Part shown: piece after piece, positions 21,509 to 34,074 of the stretch
How the letters are laid out: the number at the start of each line of letters is the position of its first letter
Numbering within the stretch: position 1 is the stretch's first letter
Assembly: GCA_003566375.1 (NCBI GenBank)
Contig: PXDN01000107.1
Span: forward strand, 1-42,932
Reading direction: 5' to 3'
DNA from: Opitutia bacterium
Lineage (GTDB): Bacteria > Verrucomicrobiota > Verrucomicrobiia > Opitutales > T3Sed10-336
DNA length: 42,932 nt
The notes under the pieces: generated by a model
Seen by the model: the letters and a program-made list of their open reading frames with translations, nothing else
What the model was told of the DNA's origin: nothing
Databases searched by the model: none
Position numbers and translations under genes: made by a program

Positions 21509-23230
21509 TCAAAACAGACTCCATAACAATAACAGCAGCACCACGAGCACGATGGCGGTGACCTCCCGGCGGCGCAAAAAGGCTTCGCTGCGGCTCATTC
21601 CAGTATGAATCTTGGAAAGGAGTCCCCCCCCCTCGACGGAAACCGGATGGTTCGATTTCCGATGAGCGTATTCAGAAGCTGAAAGACCAACGGGACGTAT
21701 CCAACTCGCCAAAGAAGAAACCACTTCACCGGGTGGAATGGATAATACTCCATGATGGCGAGCCCAAGCCTGTAATCCAAGCAACAGCAAGACACCGGCC
21801 ACAACTGGCCAAGCAGCATCAACCCACGCGGCCAAAATGGGTTTCCCTTCGGGTTTGAGCCCAAACCACGCAATCATCAAAGGTGGCACAAGCAAGGCCA
21901 CTGCCACCGATACGGACCAGGGAAGCCATGGCGGCCGGGCGGGGGACGAAGCTTCACCGCCGCAAGTCGTTTCGTTCAATCGTCGGAAAACGAGCACCCC
22001 AAAACGCCCCATCAGCGCCACCGTTCCCACTGCCGAAACACCGAGCAACACCCCAAGTGCCAAAGAAGGCCCCGGAGGCAACACCATGACATATGCGGTT
22101 GACACCGCGGATTTGACTGTCGCTCCAGCGGTCAAAGGGGCTCCGGCAATGGCAAAAGCCGGCAGGGCCAAACCGACCAATAGCCAATGGCGGTGCTGGA
22201 CGGGCGAATGGTTGGATGCCAGCAAAGCGGTTCCGAGAAAAAGAGATCCTTTGGCCAAACCGTGATTACAAGCGTAGTAAAAGACGATTAAAATCACCGT
22301 GGTCCTCAATTCAGGGGCGCTGAAGCCGAGACCAACCACGGATAACATCACTCCCATTTGGCTCACACTGGAATAAGCCAACACCGTTTTCGGTGACTGT
22401 TGCGGTAATCCCAAGACCACCCCGAAAACAGCGGTGGCCATGCCCAAGCCAATCATTGTGGTCCCCCACCCGGCTCCTCCCACAGCCACCGGCAAAAACA
22501 AAATCCACCCGAGGAGACCGGCCTTGATCATGGTTCCGCTCAAAACCGCACTGGCGGGAGCCGGAGCCACCGGATGGGCCAATGGCAGCCAAAAATGCAG
22601 AGGAATAATTCCGGCTTTTACTCCAAAACCAGTTAAAACCAAACCCGTGATCCAGTTTCGATAAGGTGAATCGACAGCGGCCCCTCGCAGGTCGATGATG
22701 GAAAGACTTTCCGCATCAAAGGCGGCCAACAGAAACGCAACCAGAATCATGGCCTCGGCCATCACCGCCAGATAGAGATAGATCCTCCCAGCCCGGCGGG
22801 CTTCCGGGGTGGCTCTCTCCACCACCAGGCCGTAGGCCGAAAAGGTCATCAGGGCAAAAAAACTGTAGAACGTAATCACGTCCATGGCCAGGATCAGACC
22901 AAGGTTGCCGGTCAAAGCCAGGTGCCAAAAGAAGGTGAACCGTCGTTGCCCGCTCTCCACCCTCGCCAATGCGGCCGCCATCCAACCAGCCAAACACCAC
23001 AGCAAGGCGGAGAATGCGAGAAACGGCGCGGTGGTAGGCGTTAAGCCCAGTTGGCTCTCGAGCAAAACCCATTCCAAAACAACCGGCTCCCATCCGGTAT
23101 CCGCCAAAACCGAAAAGACCAAGGCCGGCAAGGGAACAAAGGGCATCAGTTGCCCAGAGACTTTTGGATGGCGAACGGCCAGAGCCGCGGCAAACAAAGG
23201 AAACAGGATCAGGAGGATAATCCACATCAT
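21509..23230 (-). CDS. Proton-conducting transporter subunit (NuoL/M/N, Mrp-type), 'A' of second triplet
   Basis: 573 aa polytopic protein; GFGVKAGIIPLHFWLPLAHPVAPAPASAVLSGTMIKAGLLGW, AYSSVSQMGVML; TM5 reads FYSFFALMTFSAYGLV (no Glu). Confidence 0.88.
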   Translation of the reverse strand: MMWIILLILFPLFAAALAVRHPKVSGQLMPFVPLPALVFSVLADTGWEPVVLEWVLLESQLGLTPTTAPFLAFSALLWCLAGWMAAALARVESGQRRFTFFWHLALTGNLGLILAMDVITFYSFFALMTFSAYGLVVERATPEARRAGRIYLYLAVMAEAMILVAFLLAAFDAESLSIIDLRGAAVDSPYRNWITGLVLTGFGVKAGIIPLHFWLPLAHPVAPAPASAVLSGTMIKAGLLGWILFLPVAVGGAGWGTTMIGLGMATAVFGVVLGLPQQSPKTVLAYSSVSQMGVMLSVVGLGFSAPELRTTVILIVFYYACNHGLAKGSLFLGTALLASNHSPVQHRHWLLVGLALPAFAIAGAPLTAGATVKSAVSTAYVMVLPPGPSLALGVLLGVSAVGTVALMGRFGVLVFRRLNETTCGGEASSPARPPWLPWSVSVAVALLVPPLMIAWFGLKPEGKPILAAWVDAAWPVVAGVLLLLGLQAWARHHGVLSIPPGEVVSSLASWIRPVGLSASEYAHRKSNHPVSVEGGGLLSKIHTGMSRSEAFLRRREVTAIVLVVLLLLLWSLF

Positions 23231-24726
23231 TTGGCATAGACCCTTTCCGTGATTTGCACCGCCAAATCAAGCGGACTGAATGGCGAGGCGGCAAAAAGCC
23301 CCACCGCCAGCGACAGTGCGGCCGTTACCAAAGCGGGGATGAGCAACAAGCGTGAGGTTTCGGCAAAACGAGCGACCTTTGCTGGAGCCCAGGGCTTGGC
23401 CGGTTTCCGAAACCACCCAATGTGTAGGATGGGCAGGAAATAGGCCGCGTTCAGCAGGGTGCTGGCCACCAAAACGCCGACCACCCATGTCTGCCCGGCG
23501 GACAGCGCCCCGGTTCCCAGATACCATTTACTTATAAAGCCCGCAGTGGGCGGCACCCCGATCATTCCAAAAGCCGCCACCGTGAAGGCGGCCATGGTCC
23601 ACGGCATTCTCCTCCCCACTCCGGCCAGCTCGTCAATATGGTGAATGCCCAGGGTTTCGGCAAAATTTCCCGCGCAAAAGAAGAGGGTGATTTTCATCAA
23701 ACCCTGGTGCACCAAATGGACCAAGCTCCCAATGGTCGCCACCGGACCGAAAATCGCCACGCCGAGCGCGATGTAGGAAACCTGGCTAATGGTGGAATAA
23801 GCCAGCCGGCGTTTCAAATCCCGCTGCGCGAGCGCGCGCGCCGAACCGTAAAGAATCGTTACCGCCGCCAAAACCGCCAACGGAGTCAACAACCCCGCCT
23901 CATTGGCAAAATGAACGCCGTAGACATCTTGCACCAAACGCAGGATCCCAAACGCCCCCGCCTTGACCACCGCCACGGCATGCAGCAAAGCACTGACCGG
24001 CGCGGGCGCGATCATGGCCACCGGCAACCAACCGTGCAGCGGCACCAGGGCGGCCTTCACCCCGAAAGCCAGCACGAACACGTAAAACAAAATGGTGAGC
24101 TGAACGCCGTTTTCCGCGGCCAATTCCCGGATCACGAGGATGTCACCGAAATCAAACGAGCCGGCCAGCGAGTGCAGCCAAACCACCCCCAGAAACAGGG
24201 CCGCCCCGCCGGGCATGGTGTAAAGCAAATAGGTGCGGCCGGCCGCCAGGGTTTTTTTGGTTCCCCGATGCACGACCAGCGGATAGGTCGTCAGGGTCAA
24301 AAACTCGTAGAAGATGAAAAATGTGATCAAGTTTCCCGCCAGGGCGATGCCGACGCTGGCGGTGACGCACAAACTGAAAAACCCAAAAAACCTTTTCCGG
24401 TTGGGCGACCCTTCCAAGTAGCCGATGGCATAAAGCGTGGTTAAAAACCAAAGCACGCTCGAAAGGGTGAGAAAAAAGAGCGAGAGCAGATCGACCCGCA
24501 GCAGAAAATCGAACCCCGGCAGAATTTGGTAGCGAACGTCGAACGAGTGATCGTGCCACACCACCCCGTAAAAGATGAAGGCGACCAGAGCCAGTTTTAT
24601 CAGGGCCGCGCCGATGTTGACCGCCTCGCGCAACCGCCGCGCCCGTTCGTCGATCAGGAATATAACCAGCCCGGCCACCAGCGAACTGGCGATGACCAAG
24701 ACCGGAAGCCAGCCACCGCCGCTCAC
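23227..24726 (-). CDS. Proton-conducting transporter subunit (NuoL/M/N, Mrp-type), 'B' of second triplet
   Basis: GTG start at 24726 gives a 4-bp GTGA overlap with the upstream gene; YAIGYLEGSPNRKRFFGFFSLCVTASVGIALAGNLITFFIFYEFLTLTTYPLV, HGWLPVAMIAPAPVSALLHAVAVVKAGAFGILR. Confidence 0.9.
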   Translation of the reverse strand: MSGGGWLPVLVIASSLVAGLVIFLIDERARRLREAVNIGAALIKLALVAFIFYGVVWHDHSFDVRYQILPGFDFLLRVDLLSLFFLTLSSVLWFLTTLYAIGYLEGSPNRKRFFGFFSLCVTASVGIALAGNLITFFIFYEFLTLTTYPLVVHRGTKKTLAAGRTYLLYTMPGGAALFLGVVWLHSLAGSFDFGDILVIRELAAENGVQLTILFYVFVLAFGVKAALVPLHGWLPVAMIAPAPVSALLHAVAVVKAGAFGILRLVQDVYGVHFANEAGLLTPLAVLAAVTILYGSARALAQRDLKRRLAYSTISQVSYIALGVAIFGPVATIGSLVHLVHQGLMKITLFFCAGNFAETLGIHHIDELAGVGRRMPWTMAAFTVAAFGMIGVPPTAGFISKWYLGTGALSAGQTWVVGVLVASTLLNAAYFLPILHIGWFRKPAKPWAPAKVARFAETSRLLLIPALVTAALSLAVGLFAASPFSPLDLAVQITERVYAK

Positions 24727-26177
24727 GGCGCGCCCTCCTCCGGATTCCATTCCATGCGGACTTCATCGGTTTGCCCGAGCAGTTGCATCGGTTCGCTGAC
24801 CCGCAGTCCCATCAGCACGGATGCGGCGGCCAAGGCCAGCACGGTGGCTTCCATCAATACCGGCGGCTTCCTTACCGTGGCGAAGCCGACTTTGGCTTGA
24901 AAGGCGTAAGATAAAATGAGAAACGCGTAGGCCGCGGTGAGCAAACTCCCGGCCAGCAGGACCGGAGCCCACCACCATTGGCCACTCTGCAAGGCCGCGC
25001 TCAGCAAAAGCCATTTCCCAATAAAGCCGCCGCTTGGAGGGAGACCAATCAAACTGACGCAGGCCAGGGTGATCGCCAGCGTTGTCAAAGGCAGGTGCCC
25101 GGCCAACCCGTGCATGTTTCGAAGTTTGTCACTGCCCAACGAATACACAATCACTCCCGCTCCCATCAGCAGCGCGGCCTTGGCGGTGGCGTGGGCCATG
25201 GCTTGGTAAATACCGCCGGTCCACGCGGCGGCGGCCCAGGAAGACCCGGCATACCCGGTGAGCAAAGGTATCAAAATCAAAAGGTACCCCATTTGGCTGA
25301 CGGTGGAATGGGCAATGATCAACTTCAACCTGCGTTCGCGCAGGGCATGGACGGCTCCCCACAAGATACCCGCCGCTCCCAATGCGCCGATGAAAGCGGC
25401 GGCGGCTTGGGTCGCCACGGTTGGCAACAAATCAAACCAAATGCGCACCACGGCAAAAAAAGGTCCCTTGACCACCAACCCCGAAAGCACTGCTCCCGCC
25501 GATCCAACCGCAATGGCGTGCACCGCCGGCAACCAGTAATGCAAAGGAAATACCGCCGCCTTCACCAACAAACCGAACAAAAGCAATACCGCCGCCCAAG
25601 AGGTCATGGCGGAAGGCTCCAGCAATTCCCGCAATTCACCCATGAATAACGTGCCGTAAACGGCATGCAACCAGGCAATCGCAAATAAAAAAAGCAGGCT
25701 GCCGGGCAGGCGGATGAGAAAATAGCGGCGGGCGAGCACCAAGGCCCGGCGGGAACCGGACAACACCACCATCCCCACCGCCGCCCCCCCCACCAATTCC
25801 ACGCCGATGAACATGGCCAGCAAATGCTCCGACAAAAAAATCGTGTTCAACCCGGTTAACAAAACCAGCCATGACGGCCAAAATCCTGGTGGAATCGGGC
25901 CATTGCCATGAGGCTGCCGGTGACCCTTGGCGTGCAGTGCGATCACCAGCCCCGTGCATGTTGTCGTTCCGATGAAAAGCGCGCTGAGACCATCCGCCTT
26001 CAGCAATCCCCACCACGCCATTTCCACCTCCCCGGATCGCAATATGCCTCTCGCCAGCGCGGCCGTGAAAACCGTGTTCGCAACTGTCGCGGCAATGGTT
26101 ATTTCGGCCGCCCGATGCCGCCACAAAACCACGGCCAGCAACCCCATCAACGGCCCCAAAATCAAAGCCGTGATCAT
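24723..26177 (-). CDS. Proton-conducting transporter subunit (NuoL/M/N, MrpD-type), 'C' of second triplet
   Basis: 484 aa; LLAMFIGVELVGGAAVG, LLVKAAVFPLHYWLPAVHAIAVGSAGAVLSGLVVKG, AHSTVSQMGYLL, GLPPSGGFIGKWLLL. Confidence 0.9.
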   Translation of the reverse strand: MITALILGPLMGLLAVVLWRHRAAEITIAATVANTVFTAALARGILRSGEVEMAWWGLLKADGLSALFIGTTTCTGLVIALHAKGHRQPHGNGPIPPGFWPSWLVLLTGLNTIFLSEHLLAMFIGVELVGGAAVGMVVLSGSRRALVLARRYFLIRLPGSLLFLFAIAWLHAVYGTLFMGELRELLEPSAMTSWAAVLLLFGLLVKAAVFPLHYWLPAVHAIAVGSAGAVLSGLVVKGPFFAVVRIWFDLLPTVATQAAAAFIGALGAAGILWGAVHALRERRLKLIIAHSTVSQMGYLLILIPLLTGYAGSSWAAAAWTGGIYQAMAHATAKAALLMGAGVIVYSLGSDKLRNMHGLAGHLPLTTLAITLACVSLIGLPPSGGFIGKWLLLSAALQSGQWWWAPVLLAGSLLTAAYAFLILSYAFQAKVGFATVRKPPVLMEATVLALAAASVLMGLRVSEPMQLLGQTDEVRMEWNPEEGAP

Positions 26178-26596
26178 CAGGAGCCATCCTTCCCGCTTCC
26201 CGCATCGCCGTCACCCCGCGCCGCGCCAAACAATTTCCATCCCCAGACGGTCATTACAGCGATCCCCAACCATCCAACCGCGGCAATGGCAACCCCCTCA
26301 GCGTCCCAACGCCAGCCAAGCAACAGAACTATTGCCGCCGCCGCCATGAGATGCACTCCGGCCAAACGCCAACCCAACCGGTTGGCCAGCACCTCCAAAC
26401 CATACCCGGTGACGAACATAACGGAAGCCACCAACCCCACCAACTGTTGCCTCAGGGCGGGATCGGATTCTTGGGGATGGGTTCCCATCGCCCAAGTCCA
26501 TGCCACCGCCAGCACGCCCAGTGATAGCACAGAGGCCAGGCGAAACCCAAGCGGAAAGCTGAAACCGGAATTGGCGTCATTGGTTCGTTCGATCAT
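26177..26596 (-). CDS. Small hypothetical membrane protein in Mrp-like operon
   Basis: ~139 aa from ATG at 26596; about four hydrophobic segments; TGATG overlap with the downstream gene; no family recognised. Confidence 0.6.
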   Translation of the reverse strand: MIERTNDANSGFSFPLGFRLASVLSLGVLAVAWTWAMGTHPQESDPALRQQLVGLVASVMFVTGYGLEVLANRLGWRLAGVHLMAAAAIVLLLGWRWDAEGVAIAAVGWLGIAVMTVWGWKLFGAARGDGDAGSGKDGS

Positions 26597-26687
26597 GGCT
26601 GGTTGCAACCTGTTGTTGAAACAGCCTGCTTACAATATGCCGGCTTGGCAATGAAAGCCGAAGTTCCCAATGCTTTCCGGGAATGAC

Positions 26688-27158
26688 TCAGTGGCAACAG
26701 GTCTTGATCCTGGCCTCGAGTTCCCGCAAGTTGCCCTGCACGTCAAGCGATTGATCCAGAACATGAACGATCAAAGCATCATCGCCTACGGACAACGTGG
26801 CCGTGCCCGGCAGCAGGCTGATGCACCAGGCGAATAATGCTTTCTGGGCCTCGGAGGTGTCGGTCTTGAATTCAGTCACCGCCGGATTCAGTGGCATCGC
26901 CGGGCTGAATGCCCGCCGGGCAACATCCCAGCCACCGATTATGGCGTGGCGCAGGAACCACGGGACGAATGCCAGACAACCAGAGGGCCGTAACCGCCAG
27001 GACCCGCGTGGCAAGACGTAAAGACTGGTGATGGTGGCCAAAATCACTATCGCGGCCACCATTAAAGGTTCATCGAAATCAGCTGCGGAAACAATCGTCC
27101 ACAACAAAGTGAACGCCAATAACCGAAAAGAGATGGTTGCAAGAAATATTTTATTCAT
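26688..27158 (-). CDS. mrpE: Na+/H+ antiporter subunit E (MrpE/MnhE)
   Basis: MNKIFLATISFRLLAFTLLW; FLRHAIIGGWDVARRAFSPAMPLNPAVTEFKTD, CISLLPGTATLSVGDDALIVHVLD. Confidence 0.9.
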   Translation of the reverse strand: MNKIFLATISFRLLAFTLLWTIVSAADFDEPLMVAAIVILATITSLYVLPRGSWRLRPSGCLAFVPWFLRHAIIGGWDVARRAFSPAMPLNPAVTEFKTDTSEAQKALFAWCISLLPGTATLSVGDDALIVHVLDQSLDVQGNLRELEARIKTCCH

Positions 27159-27197
27159 ACCCTCGATGCCAACAATTCTGCATGCTGCCCTCACCGG

Positions 27198-28934
27198 CTA
27201 ACCGCGCAAAGTGAAAATAAAAATCAACAAGGTGATGAAAAACGCGATGCCAACACTGTTCCAGTGCCCGAGATGGCGCTCGCCACTGTCGGCAAGAAGG
27301 GCGTTTTGTTCGATCCCCAGCAAACGGTGCAGGTTTTTTTCCACGTCAAACACCCTTCCGGCAAGCAAGGGCTGGATGCGGCCCCGCCACGTTCGCAGGA
27401 TTGCGCGGCCCAGCCATTCAAACAGCACCACCCCGTCGCCGGGCGGTATGACGGGTACCTTGCGGGCCGGCTTGGCGCGGCGGGCCCAATGCCAACCGAA
27501 CAACAACCCGGCGCCCAGCAGAATGGGCGCCGCCGCCGCAACAGCTTTTTCCAAATCCAAGGCGACTGGATAATCCGGCAACAGGCGCATGAACCAACCA
27601 CCGGTGCCGACCAGCAGGATACCCAGCAATGACAACCATGCCCCGGTCTGCCATGGCCTGCCGGGAACGGCTTGGGTCTCATGGGGCTTTTGGGCGCAAA
27701 GGTAAAGAAACCTTCCCAGCAAGAGCGTGGTGAAAAACGAGGACGCAACCAGCAGCGCGGGCAACCAGTCCGCCAGTCCGGAAGACGCCAGCGGCACCGC
27801 GTCCTTCAACGCGCCCTTGGTCAGGGCGCCTCCGGTCAACGGCAAACCGGCAATGCTCAACGCGGCCAGCGCCAACCCGGCCATAATCCATGGACGGGCG
27901 CGGATTCCGCCCGCCTGCGCCACCCCCACCCCAAGGAATAAAGCCCCCTTGGCGATACCATGATTCCAAGCATAGAGCGCGAGCGCCGGCAGCAGCCATT
28001 CAACCGGTGCGCCGGCGGCGTGGCAGAGCGCGAAAAACACCGTCAAAACCCCCATCTGGCTAATGCTGGAATAGGCGAGGTTGGTTTTGGCATCGGTTTG
28101 AAAGAGTCCGATGAGGACCGCGCCAAAAGTGGCGGCAAGCCCCAAAACCGCCAGAGGCAAAATCCACCCCGGCGCGCCCCCTTGCAGCACCGGGGAAAAG
28201 TGCAGCCAGCCCAACAAGCCGGCCTTTAACATGGACCCGCTGAGGATGGCGCTGGCGGGAGTCGGTGCCACCGGATGAGCCAGCGGCAACCAGAAATAGA
28301 GAGGCACGATTCCGACCTTCACACCAAAACCGGCTATGGCCAACGCATAAATGGGGGTGCGCCATTCGTCCTGCCAAACCCCCTCCGCCATCTCAGCCAA
28401 GTTGATCGAACCGGAAACCGAAACGGCGGCGTAAATGGCGGCGATCAGCAACAGCTCGCCAAAGATTGCCATGATTAAATAAATCTTCCCGGCGCGCAGC
28501 GCATTTGCGGAACGGCTGTGGATAACCAATCCATAGGCGGCAAAAGTCATCAGGGCAAACAGCGTGTAAAAGCCGGCCGCGTCCTCGGCCAATATCAGAC
28601 CGAGGTTTCCCGCCATCGATAACAGGAAAAAGCACCGGAAAGTGGCCACCCGGGGCTGCCCCGCGAGGTTGCCGGCGGCAAAAAAGCCTCCGGTTGTCCA
28701 GAGCACGGCCGCCAGTGCCAGCAAGATCCGACGGGGGGTATCGAGGCCAAACTCCACCACGAGCAATACGCCGTCAAAAGACTGCGGGCCCGGCGCGACC
28801 CAGCCAAAACCGAGCGCCAGCGCGGGCAAGCCCGCGCCCCCGCAAAGCAACGCGGTCACCCAGGGGCTCTCCGGCCGCCAGCGCGAAAAACCGGCCAGCA
28901 GCATGGGCAGCAATATGACCGAAACCCACATCAT
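27198..28934 (-). CDS. Proton-conducting transporter subunit (NuoL/M/N, Mrp-type), 'A-like' member of first triplet
   Basis: MMWVSVILLPML start at 28934 (ATGA overlap); IAGFGVKVGIVPLYFWLPLAHPVAPTPASAILSGSMLKAGLLGW; TM5 reads FYTLFALMTFAAYGLV (no Glu). Confidence 0.88.
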   Translation of the reverse strand: MMWVSVILLPMLLAGFSRWRPESPWVTALLCGGAGLPALALGFGWVAPGPQSFDGVLLVVEFGLDTPRRILLALAAVLWTTGGFFAAGNLAGQPRVATFRCFFLLSMAGNLGLILAEDAAGFYTLFALMTFAAYGLVIHSRSANALRAGKIYLIMAIFGELLLIAAIYAAVSVSGSINLAEMAEGVWQDEWRTPIYALAIAGFGVKVGIVPLYFWLPLAHPVAPTPASAILSGSMLKAGLLGWLHFSPVLQGGAPGWILPLAVLGLAATFGAVLIGLFQTDAKTNLAYSSISQMGVLTVFFALCHAAGAPVEWLLPALALYAWNHGIAKGALFLGVGVAQAGGIRARPWIMAGLALAALSIAGLPLTGGALTKGALKDAVPLASSGLADWLPALLVASSFFTTLLLGRFLYLCAQKPHETQAVPGRPWQTGAWLSLLGILLVGTGGWFMRLLPDYPVALDLEKAVAAAAPILLGAGLLFGWHWARRAKPARKVPVIPPGDGVVLFEWLGRAILRTWRGRIQPLLAGRVFDVEKNLHRLLGIEQNALLADSGERHLGHWNSVGIAFFITLLIFIFTLRG

Positions 28935-30433
28935 AACATGAAATAAACCCTTTCCACAATAAGCCGCGCCAGCGTCAGCGGACTCCACCAGCTGGCGGCA
29001 AACACCCCTACCAGGACCGACACCACGGCGGTGATCAGCGGCGGCCACAGCAGCATCCACGGTGCTTCAAGGCGCCGGTTGGGACGTTTGTCGGCCCAGC
29101 CGCCGACTGGTGGCGGGGCGAACCACGCGGCATGAATAATCGGCAAAAAATACACCGCGTTCAGCGCGCTGCTGCCCAGCAAAACCATCACCACCCACGG
29201 TTGTCCGCTGTCCAACGCGCCGATGCTCAAATACCATTTGCTGACAAAGCCGGCAATGGGAGGCAAACCGATCATCCCAAACGCGCCGATGGTGAAGGCC
29301 CCCATCGTCAGCGGCAGGCGGCGGCCAATTCCGTTAAGTTCACTGACCTTGCTCAGACCGGTGGTCTCGGCAATGTTGCCGGCGCAAAAGAACAGGGTGA
29401 TTTTCATGATCCCCTGGTGCACCAAATGGACGATGGCGCCCACGGAACTGAGCATCCCCGGCACCGCCGCGCCCAGCGCGATGTAGGAAAGTTGGCTGAC
29501 GGTGGAAAACGCCAGGCGTTTCTTCAAATCATCCTGCGCAATCGCGCGGATCGATCCATAGATAATCGTAAAAGCGGCGATAAAAGCCAGGGGGTTGAGC
29601 ACCGACAAAGCGGTTGCCAGTTCGATCCCGTAAACATCGTAGATCAGGCGGATGATCCCAAAAGCCCCCGCCTTGACCACCGCCACCGCGTGCAGCAGGG
29701 CGCTCACCGGCGCCGGCGCGACCATCGCCACCGGCAACCAACCGTGCAGGGGAAAGATCGCCGCCTTGGCCGCGAAACCGGCCAACAAGATGAAAAACAG
29801 GATTTTCAGCTCCAACGGGTGCGTTTCAACAAATCCGGCCAAATGAATGCCTTGGGCAAATTCCACCTCCCCGGCCAACACCGACAGGCCCACTATCCCG
29901 ACAAACAACACGGTCCCCCCGCCGATGGTGTAAAACAGGTAGTTGCGTCCGGCTTCCACCGCTTTTTGGGTGCCGCGGTGCACCACCAGCGGGTAGGTGG
30001 TCAGCGTCAAAAACTCATAGAAAACAAAAAAGGTTACCAGATTGCCCGACAAAGCGATGCCGGTGCTCGCCGTCACGCACATGCTGAAAAAGCCGAAAAA
30101 GCGGCGGCGGTTGGGGGACCCTTCGAGATAACCGATGGCATAGATGGTGGTGATCAACCAAAGAATGCTCGACAGGCCGGCGAACAACAGCGCGAGCGCA
30201 TCAATCCGCAGCATGAATTGCAAATCCACCGTAACCTGAAACGTAAACGCGTATTCCTGGCCACTGCGGTAACCGAAGTAAACCAGGATCAGCAGAAGCA
30301 ACTTGAGGACGGCCCCGAACAAATTCAGCGCGGTGCGGGTGCGAATCGAGGATTCGGACAGGAAGAAAATCAGCACCCCGGGAATGAGCGAGCTGCAGAC
30401 AATTAACAAAGGCAGCAAGACGTTCCAGTTCAT
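28931..30433 (-). CDS. Proton-conducting transporter subunit (NuoL/M/N, Mrp-type), 'B-like' member of first triplet
   Basis: 500 aa; YAIGYLEGSPNRRRFFGFFSMCVTASTGIALSGNLVTFFVFYEFLTLTTYPLVVHRGT; clearly paralogous to 23227-24726. Confidence 0.9.
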   Translation of the reverse strand: MNWNVLLPLLIVCSSLIPGVLIFFLSESSIRTRTALNLFGAVLKLLLLILVYFGYRSGQEYAFTFQVTVDLQFMLRIDALALLFAGLSSILWLITTIYAIGYLEGSPNRRRFFGFFSMCVTASTGIALSGNLVTFFVFYEFLTLTTYPLVVHRGTQKAVEAGRNYLFYTIGGGTVLFVGIVGLSVLAGEVEFAQGIHLAGFVETHPLELKILFFILLAGFAAKAAIFPLHGWLPVAMVAPAPVSALLHAVAVVKAGAFGIIRLIYDVYGIELATALSVLNPLAFIAAFTIIYGSIRAIAQDDLKKRLAFSTVSQLSYIALGAAVPGMLSSVGAIVHLVHQGIMKITLFFCAGNIAETTGLSKVSELNGIGRRLPLTMGAFTIGAFGMIGLPPIAGFVSKWYLSIGALDSGQPWVVMVLLGSSALNAVYFLPIIHAAWFAPPPVGGWADKRPNRRLEAPWMLLWPPLITAVVSVLVGVFAASWWSPLTLARLIVERVYFML

Positions 30434-31962
30434 GGAAGTTCCTCCCCTCCGCCGCTAATCATTTCCACGGCATTTCCAAAACCCGAGGTGCCCTCCAACA
30501 AACCGGTCACCCACTCCGCGGGCAGCGCCACCACGATCGCCGCAATGGCAAGCACCAGCGCGCAGGCCTGCAATCCGGGCGGAACCGGTCGTAACGGGGT
30601 CTCCTTGAGAGCGGGGGCAAAGGCAAGGCGCAGGATCATGAACACATAGCCGGCCGTCAACAAACTGCCGACCAGGATAAAAGGCACCCACCACCATTGG
30701 CCGCTGGCAAAAACCGCCTTCAGCAACATCCACTTGGCCAGGAAGCCGCCGCTCGGCGGCAGCCCGATCAAGCTGACCCCGGCAAGCCCGATCGCAAAGG
30801 TTGTCATCGGCAACCGTCCCACCATGTTCAACAGCGAATCCTTGTGGTCGTTCCCAACCGCAATCACCAGCACGCCGACGCCAAGGAAGAAGGCCGCCTT
30901 GGCAAAGCCGTGCGCCAGCACCTGGTAGATGGCGCCGGTCCAGGCGAACACGGTCCAGTCCGGCGTTTGTGCCATCCCCAGCGGCACCGTGATCAGGGGA
31001 AACAACAGAAAGAGGTAACCGATCTGGGCGACGGAAGAATGCGCGATCACCAACTTCAAACGCTGCTGGCGCAGCGCCTGAAACGAACCCCAAATCACCG
31101 CGACCGCCCCGAGCGCGCCAAGAACCTGCCCGGCCGCAAAGGTAAGCGAGACTCCAAACATTTCGACCCAGAGCCGCAGAATGATGAAAAACGTGCCTTT
31201 CAAAACCAGCGCCGAGAGGATGGCGCTGACCGGCGGCTCGGCCGATGAATGGGCCGGCGGCAGCCAAAAATGCAGCGGAAAGACCGCCGTCTTCACCATC
31301 AGCCCGGCCAGGATCAGGGCAAAGGCAATTTTCGCTGTCGGTCCCGTTTCCAAAGCCGCCGCCGCCAGCCCGATATCAAGCGCGCCCGTCGCGCCAAAAA
31401 TCAACGCCACTCCCATCAGGTAAGCCAGGGAGCCGACAATGGCGGCGAGCAGGTAGCGCAAACCGGCGACCATCGCCGGGTTTTTGCCGGACAACACCGC
31501 CAGGGCCACGGCGGCAATCCCAACCACCTCGATCACCACATAGAGGTTGAACAAATCCTCGGCCAGGTACATCCCATTCAAACCCGCCCACAACAACAGC
31601 CAGAGCGGCCAGAACATCGAAGCGCGGGCGGGATTTTCCACCACTTTGTCAAAATAGACCCGCGCGTAAAAACTCACCACGCCGCCGACCAGCCCGGTCA
31701 TCAAAATAAACACCGCTGAAAGGCCGTCGAGCTTCAGCCCAATCCCCAACGGCGGCGGCCAACCGCCAAGCGCATGCGACAACGAGCCTCCGCCGGCAAT
31801 CACCGCTCCGGCCAACACCGCGAGGGAGGTCGTCAGCCAGGCAAAAACCAACCCCGCCGGCCCCCGTGCCTTCGGCGGCAACAGAAACGTCACCACCCCC
31901 CCCGCAATCGGCAGGATCACCAACCAAGCGGGCAGGTTTTTCAGTAGCAAGAGCGCGGTCAC
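30430..31962 (-). CDS. mrpD: Proton-conducting transporter subunit (MrpD-type), 'C-like' member of first triplet
   Basis: GTG start at 31962 (4 bp overlap with mrpC stop); YLAEDLFNLYVVIEVVGIAAVAL, LMVKTAVFPLHFWLPPAHSSAEPPVSAILSALVLKGTF, AHSSVAQIGYLFL, GLPPSGGFLAKWMLL. Confidence 0.88.
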   Translation of the reverse strand: MTALLLLKNLPAWLVILPIAGGVVTFLLPPKARGPAGLVFAWLTTSLAVLAGAVIAGGGSLSHALGGWPPPLGIGLKLDGLSAVFILMTGLVGGVVSFYARVYFDKVVENPARASMFWPLWLLLWAGLNGMYLAEDLFNLYVVIEVVGIAAVALAVLSGKNPAMVAGLRYLLAAIVGSLAYLMGVALIFGATGALDIGLAAAALETGPTAKIAFALILAGLMVKTAVFPLHFWLPPAHSSAEPPVSAILSALVLKGTFFIILRLWVEMFGVSLTFAAGQVLGALGAVAVIWGSFQALRQQRLKLVIAHSSVAQIGYLFLLFPLITVPLGMAQTPDWTVFAWTGAIYQVLAHGFAKAAFFLGVGVLVIAVGNDHKDSLLNMVGRLPMTTFAIGLAGVSLIGLPPSGGFLAKWMLLKAVFASGQWWWVPFILVGSLLTAGYVFMILRLAFAPALKETPLRPVPPGLQACALVLAIAAIVVALPAEWVTGLLEGTSGFGNAVEMISGGGEELP

Positions 31963-32267
31963 GCGTCGTCCTCCCCGCCAAAGCGGTCTTGCCCGCTTTG
32001 CAAACGTATCCGCCGCGCCAGGGCAAGGGCGAAGGCCGCCGCGCTGACGGCCACCACGATGCCGGTGATCACCATGGCATGCGGAACCGGGTCGGCGAAC
32101 TCCAGCGCGTCCCGCTCGGCTATGCTCACCAGGAGCAGGAAAACCCCGCCGCCCAGGATTTTGGTGGCGATGATTTTCTTGAAAAAGCGCTCGCACAGAA
32201 AAACCGCCGCCAGCCCAATGGCAAACAACCCCACCGCGACGATGGCATAGACTTCATGAGTTTCCAT
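31959..32267 (-). CDS. mrpC: Na+/H+ antiporter subunit C (MrpC/NuoK-like)
   Basis: METHEVYAIVAVGLFAIGLAAVF...ILGGGVFLLLVSIA...DPVPHAMVITGIVVAVSAAAFALALARRI. Confidence 0.9.
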   Translation of the reverse strand: METHEVYAIVAVGLFAIGLAAVFLCERFFKKIIATKILGGGVFLLLVSIAERDALEFADPVPHAMVITGIVVAVSAAAFALALARRIRLQSGQDRFGGEDDA

Positions 32268-33342
32268 CCCGCCCGCCTCCTTTCCATCCAAGCTCCGGCG
32301 CCTGCGCCATACCGGTGAAATAGACAAAAAAACAGGTCAGGGTGAGCCCGATCGACAAGGTTGCGAAGGCTTCCACCCACAATATCAGCCAGCCCGCGTG
32401 GGCGGCCGGGTATTCAAGAAACGCCCGGTCCAGCACCATGAAGCCGATCCCGGCGAGGAGGAAAAAAGCAAACCCAATGGCCAAACCAAGTTTCCAGACC
32501 CACCGCGGCATCGCCTCAACAAAGTGCCACCCGGCCAGCTGCAACAAAATCCCCGCCGCGCCCAGCACAACCCCGGCCTGAAAGGCCCCGCCCGGATACG
32601 CCTTGCCCAGCCACAGCAAATATCCCGCGACCAGCACCATGACCGGCGCAAGCAAGCGCGCCAGCCGATCGATCAACAAATCCCGCTCGGTGGAGACCTC
32701 GCCGCGCCGAAAACCCTCAAAGCCACCGGCACAGAAGATCGCCAACATCGCGATCAGCAAAACCCCCACCTCCAGCCAAGTATCATAGCTGCGGAAGTTC
32801 AACAAAACCGCCGTCACCGGATGCTCCACCCCGGAACGTTCCAAGGCTTCGGCGGAGGCCGCGGTCAAGCCGCCGCCGACCGGCATTCCCCACACCGCCG
32901 TCAGCAGAAAACCGGCGAAAACACCCGTGCCCAATAAAACCATCGCCGTCTGCAGGGCCGGCTTTGAAAACACAACCCCCTCGGGCTTAGGCACGCCCCA
33001 GAATCGCTTCCCGCGCGGCTCAGGGCCGGAAGGCCCGCCGACCGGGGCTTGCGGAGAGTCTCCCCTTTCGGTTGATCCATCCATCACGGAACCGCCGCCG
33101 GAGGGTTCGAAATCCCGCAGCGAGTGGATCAGCAAAACGCCGAGCAGCCCCGCGCCAATGGCGGCCTCGGCCAAGGCCACGTCCGGTGCGGCCAACCGCG
33201 CCCATGCCAGCGCAAGGGTCAGACCGAAGGCGATAAACGTAACCGCGCTTTGATAAAGACCGCCCACCAGCACCGCGCGCAGGGCCAGCAGTAAAATCAG
33301 CACCGCCAACACACAGTCGAGGAGGAGATTGAGCACGCTCAT
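32254..33342 (-). CDS. Fused MbhD (DUF4040) - MbhE-like - MnhB (MrpB) antiporter subunit
   Basis: N-term LTLALAWARLAAPDVALAEAAIGAGLLGVLLI (DUF4040/MrpA C-terminal type); middle VTAVLLNFRSYDTWLEVGVLLIAMLAIF (MbhE type); C-term LLLWLGKAYPGGAFQAGVVLGAAGILLQLAG (MnhB type). Confidence 0.87.
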   Translation of the reverse strand: MSVLNLLLDCVLAVLILLLALRAVLVGGLYQSAVTFIAFGLTLALAWARLAAPDVALAEAAIGAGLLGVLLIHSLRDFEPSGGGSVMDGSTERGDSPQAPVGGPSGPEPRGKRFWGVPKPEGVVFSKPALQTAMVLLGTGVFAGFLLTAVWGMPVGGGLTAASAEALERSGVEHPVTAVLLNFRSYDTWLEVGVLLIAMLAIFCAGGFEGFRRGEVSTERDLLIDRLARLLAPVMVLVAGYLLWLGKAYPGGAFQAGVVLGAAGILLQLAGWHFVEAMPRWVWKLGLAIGFAFFLLAGIGFMVLDRAFLEYPAAHAGWLILWVEAFATLSIGLTLTCFFVYFTGMAQAPELGWKGGGRDGNS

Positions 33343-33668
33343 GGGGGATCATCTCCTTCCGATTTCGGTTCAACGGCCTTGCCGCCGCTTTTGTGGGTCA
33401 AATGAAAATGACCGATGGCATAGCAGCCGGTTGAACCCGCCAGCAGGGCCAACGCCCAGATTACGCCCAGCTTCAGCCCTTCCCAGACCACGGTGGTTTG
33501 AAAGACCAGCCCCAGTATCAGCAGCCCGAGCCCGAGGTTGTCAGCCTTGGTCAGCGCATGCAGCCTCGACCACAAGTCGGGAAAACGCAGCAACCCCACC
33601 GTGCCGGCCAGGATGAAAAAGCCGCCCGCCACCATAAAGACGACCGTTACCCAGTCGTTCCAGGCCAT
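33339..33668 (-). CDS. mrpG: Na+/H+ antiporter subunit G (MrpG/MnhG)
   Basis: 109 aa; GGFFILAGTVGLLRFPDLWSRLHALTKADNLGLGLLILGLVFQ. Confidence 0.92.
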   Translation of the reverse strand: MAWNDWVTVVFMVAGGFFILAGTVGLLRFPDLWSRLHALTKADNLGLGLLILGLVFQTTVVWEGLKLGVIWALALLAGSTGCYAIGHFHLTHKSGGKAVEPKSEGDDPP

Positions 33669-33949
33669 CAGTGCGCGCCTCCGCCTTTGTGCGCATCACG
33701 ATTCACGGCGGTGCGCAAGAAACAAACCACCACCATCACCGCCAGCAAGACAAACGCCAGAGAGACGTTGCGCAACGCGGGTTGTTGCAACAACTCCGCC
33801 AACACCAGCAGCGCCCCCACTCCGGTCGAGCCAAACAACTGGGCGGCCGTCAAACGGTCCGCAACCGAAGGCCCGCGCGCCAGCCGAACCATCGCCGCCG
33901 CAATGTTGAGCATCAAAAAACAAAGGAATGTTGCGTAGAAAAAATCCAT
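33668..33949 (-). CDS. mrpF: Na+/H+ antiporter subunit F (MrpF/MnhF)
   Basis: MDFFYATFLCFLMLNIAAAMVRLARGPSVADRLTAAQLFGSTGVGALLVLAELL (RGPSVADRL motif). Confidence 0.9.
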   Translation of the reverse strand: MDFFYATFLCFLMLNIAAAMVRLARGPSVADRLTAAQLFGSTGVGALLVLAELLQQPALRNVSLAFVLLAVMVVVCFLRTAVNRDAHKGGGAH

Positions 33950-33993
33950 AACCACCAATCCGCTTGAAGCCACAACGATACCCGGCGGCAAAT

Positions 33994-34074
33994 CCTTGCC
34001 ATGAGGATGCAAGGCAAGGCAGTCCATGCAAGCCGGAGGCTCCGATTTTCCGGCTCTATCCCCGGAACGGGGAT
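33994..34074 (-). promoter_or_regulatory. Structured leader candidate upstream of mrp operon (three consecutive perfect-arm hairpins)
   Basis: Perfect inverted repeats: ATCCCCG/CGGGGAT (34058-34074), AGCCGGA/TCCGGCT (34031-34055), CCTTGCC/GGCAAGG (33994-34019), within the 229-nt gap before mrpF. Confidence 0.4.

Follow-up and report, generated by a model that had tools for sequence, protein, structure and literature searches.

In the Mrp cation/proton antiporter of known structure, MrpD adjoins the small subunits which form the Na+ module and the N-terminal part of MrpA (MrpA-N) is found at the far end (PMC7419157). MrpA and MrpD are the sole large subunits of the canonical seven-subunit complexes (6z16, 7qru, 7d3u). 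Clusters richer in antiporter-like genes have also been described: a group 3 mrpFGBCDDAE cluster in Microbacterium sp. TS-1 and mrpCDCDEFGBB clusters in cyanobacteria (PMC5703873), MrpEFGBCD1D2D3 in the soda-lake Opitutales isolate Verruconatronum alginivorum (PMC13274419), and a locus of Ca. Nitrospira alkalitolerans where two NuoM/NuoL-like genes after mrpD were interpreted as additional mrpA/mrpD-like genes (PMC7784846). The operon described here is carried by contig PXDN01000107.1 of assembly GCA_003566375.1 (Opitutia bacterium; Opitutales; T3Sed10-336), whose 42,932 nt are called the window below. It is a known kind of system, a group 3 Mrp operon, extended by an old, divergent second copy of its three proton-arm subunits, and such a layout has not been seen before. 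The oddity of the operon is a block following mrpE, composed of an orphan gene (X) and three antiporter-like genes (C, B and A), without accessory genes of its own.

The host belongs to an order with many soda-lake members, and its genome is a fragmented draft of 3.6 Mb in 422 contigs, 88% complete, with 16 genes matching PF00361; the whole case comes from this one draft genome. The operon is a single minus-strand run of twelve genes from 34027 to 21509, without internal stop or frameshift, in the order mrpF-mrpG-(MbhD/MbhE/MnhB)-mrpC-[C'-B'-A']-mrpE-X-[C-B-A]:

33668..34027, minus strand: mrpF (Pfam MrpF_PhaF), the Asp of the R-GP-x-x-x-DR motif retained
33339..33668, minus strand: mrpG (Pfam PhaG_MnhG_YufB)
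32254..33342, minus strand: fused MbhD/MbhE/MnhB gene, i.e. the MrpA C-terminal part plus MrpB (Pfam MbhD, MnhB), with the motif APDVALAEAAIGAG and its Glu
31959..32267, minus strand: mrpC, NuoK-like (Pfam Oxidored_q2), start set at ATG
30430..31962, minus strand: C', first-triplet antiporter-like subunit related to MrpD (PF00361), MrpD sister in the tree, 80% identical to L108
28931..30433, minus strand: B', antiporter-like subunit in the middle of the first triplet (PF00361), 83% to L108
27198..28934, minus strand: A', third member of the first triplet, antiporter-like and extended at its C-terminus (PF00361), 65% to L108
26688..27194, minus strand: mrpE (Pfam MNHE), which closes the operon in relatives from Opitutales and Desulfovibrionales
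26177..26608, minus strand: X, orphan hydrophobic protein with four predicted helices and no family match, placed as mrpC is before the first triplet
24723..26177, minus strand: C, fast-evolving antiporter-like member of the appended triplet, transport residues retained (PF00361, tree, residue alignment)
23227..24726, minus strand: B, antiporter-like subunit of the appended triplet, 92/92 near-invariant positions retained (PF00361, tree, residue alignment)
21509..23230, minus strand: A, antiporter-like subunit of the appended triplet, model resembling MrpA-N/NuoL (PF00361, tree, AlphaFold model)

An earlier note on this DNA had described an Mrp-type operon with six NuoL/M/N-like genes arranged as two collinear triplets that match member for member, and this description was confirmed, all genes being intact at the coordinates given. 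The accessory genes carry MNHE, MnhG, MrpF, MbhD, MnhB and NuoK-like domains (Pfam), all six large genes match PF00361 far over the cut-off, and the triplet members pair by BLAST at 58% identity for B/B' (E 0), 46% for C/C' (1e-109) and 40% for A/A' (2e-82), while identity across the types is about 30%. Homologues of MrpC, E, F, G, MrpB and MrpA-C (MbhD/E) are thus gathered in a single cluster, as in Mrp (CPA3) operons, and in place of the minimum of at least two large antiporter-like subunits with transport residues, six are present. The overlaps of 1-4 bp within each triplet were found as reported, and the gap of about 90 bp between mrpE and X, the main gap of the operon, measures 79 bp (to a TTG start of X) or 91 bp (to an ATG).

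Judged by gene content and order, the first eight genes (F-G-DEB-C-C'B'A'-E, with DEB for the fused gene) are a complete, standard group 3 Mrp cation/proton antiporter operon. The first triplet has the three collinear antiporter-like genes of types C-B-A, the D1-D2-D3 of group 3, together with the accessory genes, and it is 76% identical to the triplet of a Puniceicoccaceae metagenome-assembled genome (MAG), locus L108, its sister in the tree. The layout was compared with nine loci of this order and class and with 80 from named genomes across many phyla, some of them cut by contig ends; all nine and most of the 80 showed the same accessory genes and one triplet in the order C-B-A. This single-triplet layout is present in dozens of named genomes, among them Opitutales, Desulfovibrionales, Marinobacter, Thioalkalivibrio, Planctomycetota, Myxococcota, Rubrobacter and others. 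Since three large subunits are a described Mrp variant in the literature, the first eight genes are a standard copy, and the surprise expressed earlier, which took the canonical Mrp with two such subunits for comparison, was overstated. The TS-1 and Verruconatronum clusters (PMC5703873, PMC13274419) share with the window the accessory set and three antiporter-like subunits, and the TS-1 order, with mrpE last, is that of the first part of the window operon; however, both lack a second triplet and X. The Ca. Nitrospira alkalitolerans locus (PMC7784846) is alike in its extra NuoM/NuoL-like genes after mrpD, though three large subunits are described there against six in the window. In the cyanobacterial clusters (PMC5703873) C-D is likewise repeated within one cluster, but each repeat has one D and its own mrpC, whereas the window has three genes per block and X replaces mrpC. 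Canonical Mrp and the window have the accessory subunits in common, and their large subunits share a fold; in canonical Mrp, however, the N- and C-terminal parts of MrpA, separate in the window, are fused. The membrane arm of complex I (NuoL, M, N) resembles the triplets in having three antiporter-like subunits in an arm; in contrast to complex I, no quinone-binding, redox or peripheral-arm subunit (of complex I or of membrane-bound hydrogenase) was found among the operon genes and their immediate neighbours, which are Mrp subunits or unrelated, the rest of the window not being annotated gene by gene.

The X-C-B-A layout was found in no other genome surveyed, and an operon with two triplets departs from the one triplet per operon of group 3. 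Genomes were searched for a second A-type gene in the order (373), the class (286), the phylum (289) and the class of a Desulfonatronovibrio MAG (297); these sets overlap, only seven close relatives of the same family are included and metagenome contigs lay outside the scan. Among the genomes searched, only that of the window has two A-type genes in one operon. In three others the two such genes lie on separate contigs, and all of the copies fetched (4/4) are accompanied by an E-F-G-DEB-C set of their own. No second triplet follows mrpE in Opitutales, Desulfovibrionales or other loci with mrpE last (E-last loci) that have enough downstream sequence; in L108, the nearest relative, the reading frame after mrpE is unrelated and on the opposite strand. 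Nor was a six-module precedent found in the literature searched.

X itself has no Pfam or NCBIfam match and, by sequence comparison with 177 genomes and 92 loci, is confined to the window operon. Its structure model has four helices at low confidence and gave no match to known structures in Foldseek. X as a diverged MrpC, MrpB, MrpF, MrpG or MrpE was considered and rejected, hhalign probabilities being <7% for all. Its position is that of mrpC, directly before C as mrpC is before C', and its stop overlaps the start of C (TGATG) similarly to the mrpC/C' overlap.

The appended block is probably functional because its transport residues are retained: the Lys of transmembrane helices (TM) 7, 8 and 12 is present in 6/6 large subunits, and the TM5 Glu in both B-type and both C-type subunits. 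In the A-type the TM5 Glu is replaced by Ala/Val/Thr/Ser/Gly in 63/63 rows, and therefore its absence is a trait of the type and not a loss in the window. This Glu is kept in every other subunit compared, and the A-type (21509-23230, 27198-28934 and all relatives) has an invariant Glu about 30 residues later. Of the positions near-invariant in the family, B retains 92/92 and A 46/47, so the appended triplet is not a relic. C retains 26/34, with eight changed, and is the only member to have evolved faster than its counterpart, the summed branch length from the base of the E-last clade being 1.34 against about 0.90 for C', compared with 0.33 against about 0.59 for B/B' and 0.85 against about 1.16 for A/A'.

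These features may be brought together as follows. The first triplet and the accessory subunits would constitute the usual Na+/H+ antiporter serving pH and Na+ homeostasis. Its three large subunits would form a proton arm, with MrpC as the link to the sole Na+ module (MrpC, MbhD/E, F, G, B, E); analogy with the Mrp structure would put C' on MrpC and place B' and A' further out. The second triplet would build another proton arm arranged alike, with C at the docking site, B in the middle and A distal. As there is one Na+ module, the member expected to dock (C) is the changed one and X stands in the place of mrpC, we infer that the second arm docks differently, through the changed C and probably with X as an adaptor, on the shared Na+ module. 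The arms would then alternate on one Na+ module, and one operon would supply two Mrp isoforms rather than a six-module machine. An alternative second proton arm of this kind is the reading tentatively preferred here. The standard single-triplet operon of the relatives and the literature supports it, as do the transport residues retained in both triplets and the mrpE-X gap, in which no strong terminator-like or promoter-like site was found. Several points weigh against it: X has no detectable homology to MrpC and its adaptor role is read from position; the divergence of C could also mean relaxed constraint or a stand-alone role; and docking on the shared module is deduced from the genes.

Such a stand-alone role would make X-C-B-A a small proton-translocating complex of its own, with another cation or a partner encoded elsewhere. 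The block without accessory genes, the diverged MrpD-like C and the orphan X as sole companion would all suit it; nevertheless, the block stands directly after Mrp accessory genes, and the complete loci of relatives pair such a triplet with an accessory set, hence this explanation is regarded as rather unlikely.

The origin of the block bears on a further explanation. When MrpA, MrpD, haloarchaeal, NuoL/M/N and other references are included, the tree separates types A, B and C into three old groups, C being nearest to MrpD, and in each of them the appended member of the window lies near E-last relatives and outside the Opitutales members. As this position is the same in all three, the block probably has a single history. 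In the tree of the three joined proteins it belongs to the E-last clade (support 100/99) and, with a branch length of 1.04, stays outside the Opitutales clade (100/100). A recent tandem duplication of the neighbouring triplet was rejected by the approximately unbiased (AU) test (p-AU 1.4e-6 for the pair), as was the triplet pair with L108 added (p-AU 2.4e-5); placements within the E-last clade as sister to Opitutales (p 0.26) or to L061 (p 0.31) were both retained. By these trees the triplets diverged before the radiation of Opitutales, and because their pairing is rejected and the long branch lies outside Opitutales, the block would be either a paralogue older than the Opitutales clade and lost elsewhere, or an acquisition from an unsampled relative. 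The segmental triplet duplication proposed in the earlier note therefore fails as a recent event and survives as an ancient paralogue, one of these two options; the contrary case of two unrelated acquisitions is half borne out, since the two triplets share one E-last subclade without being each other's closest relatives. Codon usage of the block is slightly less host-like than that of the first triplet, which mildly favours transfer over ancient paralogy. The block might accordingly be seen as a recently captured passenger, with no essential role yet and heading for loss, and its absence from L108 and all other relatives surveyed, its long branch and its codon usage agree with that; this is improbable, however, in view of the absence of stops and frameshifts, the near-complete conserved positions in A and B and the transport residues in all three.

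The earlier note had also considered one very large complex, and a single arm with all six antiporter-like modules might be suggested by the collinear genes on the same strand, the same order of both triplets and the transport residues in every module. We are aware of no arm of six antiporter-like modules. The AlphaFold model of A (pLDDT 84) matches MrpA-N, NuoL and HycC, and its C-terminal amphipathic stretch and last TM helix, both poorly modelled, suit a subunit at the far end of such an arm. A-type subunits thus look like arm ends, and simple chain extension does not predict the unequal divergence of C, which leaves this arrangement disfavoured and very improbable. Yet more doubtful is its fullest form, a single Mrp-derived complex of six antiporter-like modules and one Na+ module, which would be the longest arm of the superfamily with a higher H+ per Na+ coupling ratio suiting life at very high pH.

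Least probable of all is an assembly artefact joining two operons at the mrpE-X junction, for although the draft is fragmented and this is the only loose junction, the tetranucleotide composition of the two operon halves correlates at 0.94, the GH123 gene beyond the block has its nearest match among the searched relatives in genomes of the same family (62-63%), so that both sides fit one lineage, and no free second operon of such kind was seen in the genome. From the GH123 affinity and the agreeing composition a join of two organisms' DNA is unlikely, and the earlier concern about mis-assembly found no support.

The operon bears on the question of how ion stoichiometry follows from the number of antiporter-like subunits in Mrp, hydrogenases and complex I: one Na+ module with two sets of three proton modules would offer a natural test of whether arms can be exchanged on one ion module and of which faces change in the process. 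It also enlarges an already large antiporter repertoire, for the genome further encodes another Mrp operon and a complex I-like cluster in which NuoM occurs twice.

Some smaller observations may be added. Neither candidate start of X is preceded by a clear ribosome-binding site. For mrpC the ATG at 32267 is the more likely start, because the listed TTG would overlap the preceding gene by 74 bp. In the TM2 region, where H37 and H40 are found in canonical Anoxybacillus MrpC (PMC7419157), the window MrpC (31959-32267) carries no His; this may mean little, as the aligned Vibrio and Streptomyces MrpC also lack these residues.

Loci with mrpE last (L048-L052, L061, L108, L124, L125, L127, L130, L138) come from Opitutales, Desulfovibrionales/Syntrophobacteraceae and L061 and form one clade; this combination of layout and common clade may point to transfer of the operon among phyla of alkaline sediments. 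On plasmids, only single triplets were found in the regions examined: Rhizobium rosettiformans p4 (L166) has a complete E-F-G-DEB-C-C-B-A set, Rubrobacter radiotolerans plasmid 1 (L165) a three-subunit Mrp operon with a different order of large subunits, and a haloarchaeal plasmid E-F-G...C-D-D-D; one of the L165 and L166 plasmids is mobilizable. Mrp operons with full accessory sets and apparently only C- and A-type large subunits, without B, were seen at L170, L171 and L173. In the same genome as the window, the complex I-like cluster L058 (G000:C339:7517-14227) has four antiporter-like subunits grouping as NuoL, two NuoM and NuoN, and a NuoM1-NuoM2 complex I has been reported from Verruconatronum (PMC13274419). 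The second, different Mrp operon, L057 (G000:C204:6192-13774), has three antiporter-like subunits which group with haloarchaeal D1-D2-D3, the third carrying Asn in place of the TM7 Lys as does its haloarchaeal counterpart.

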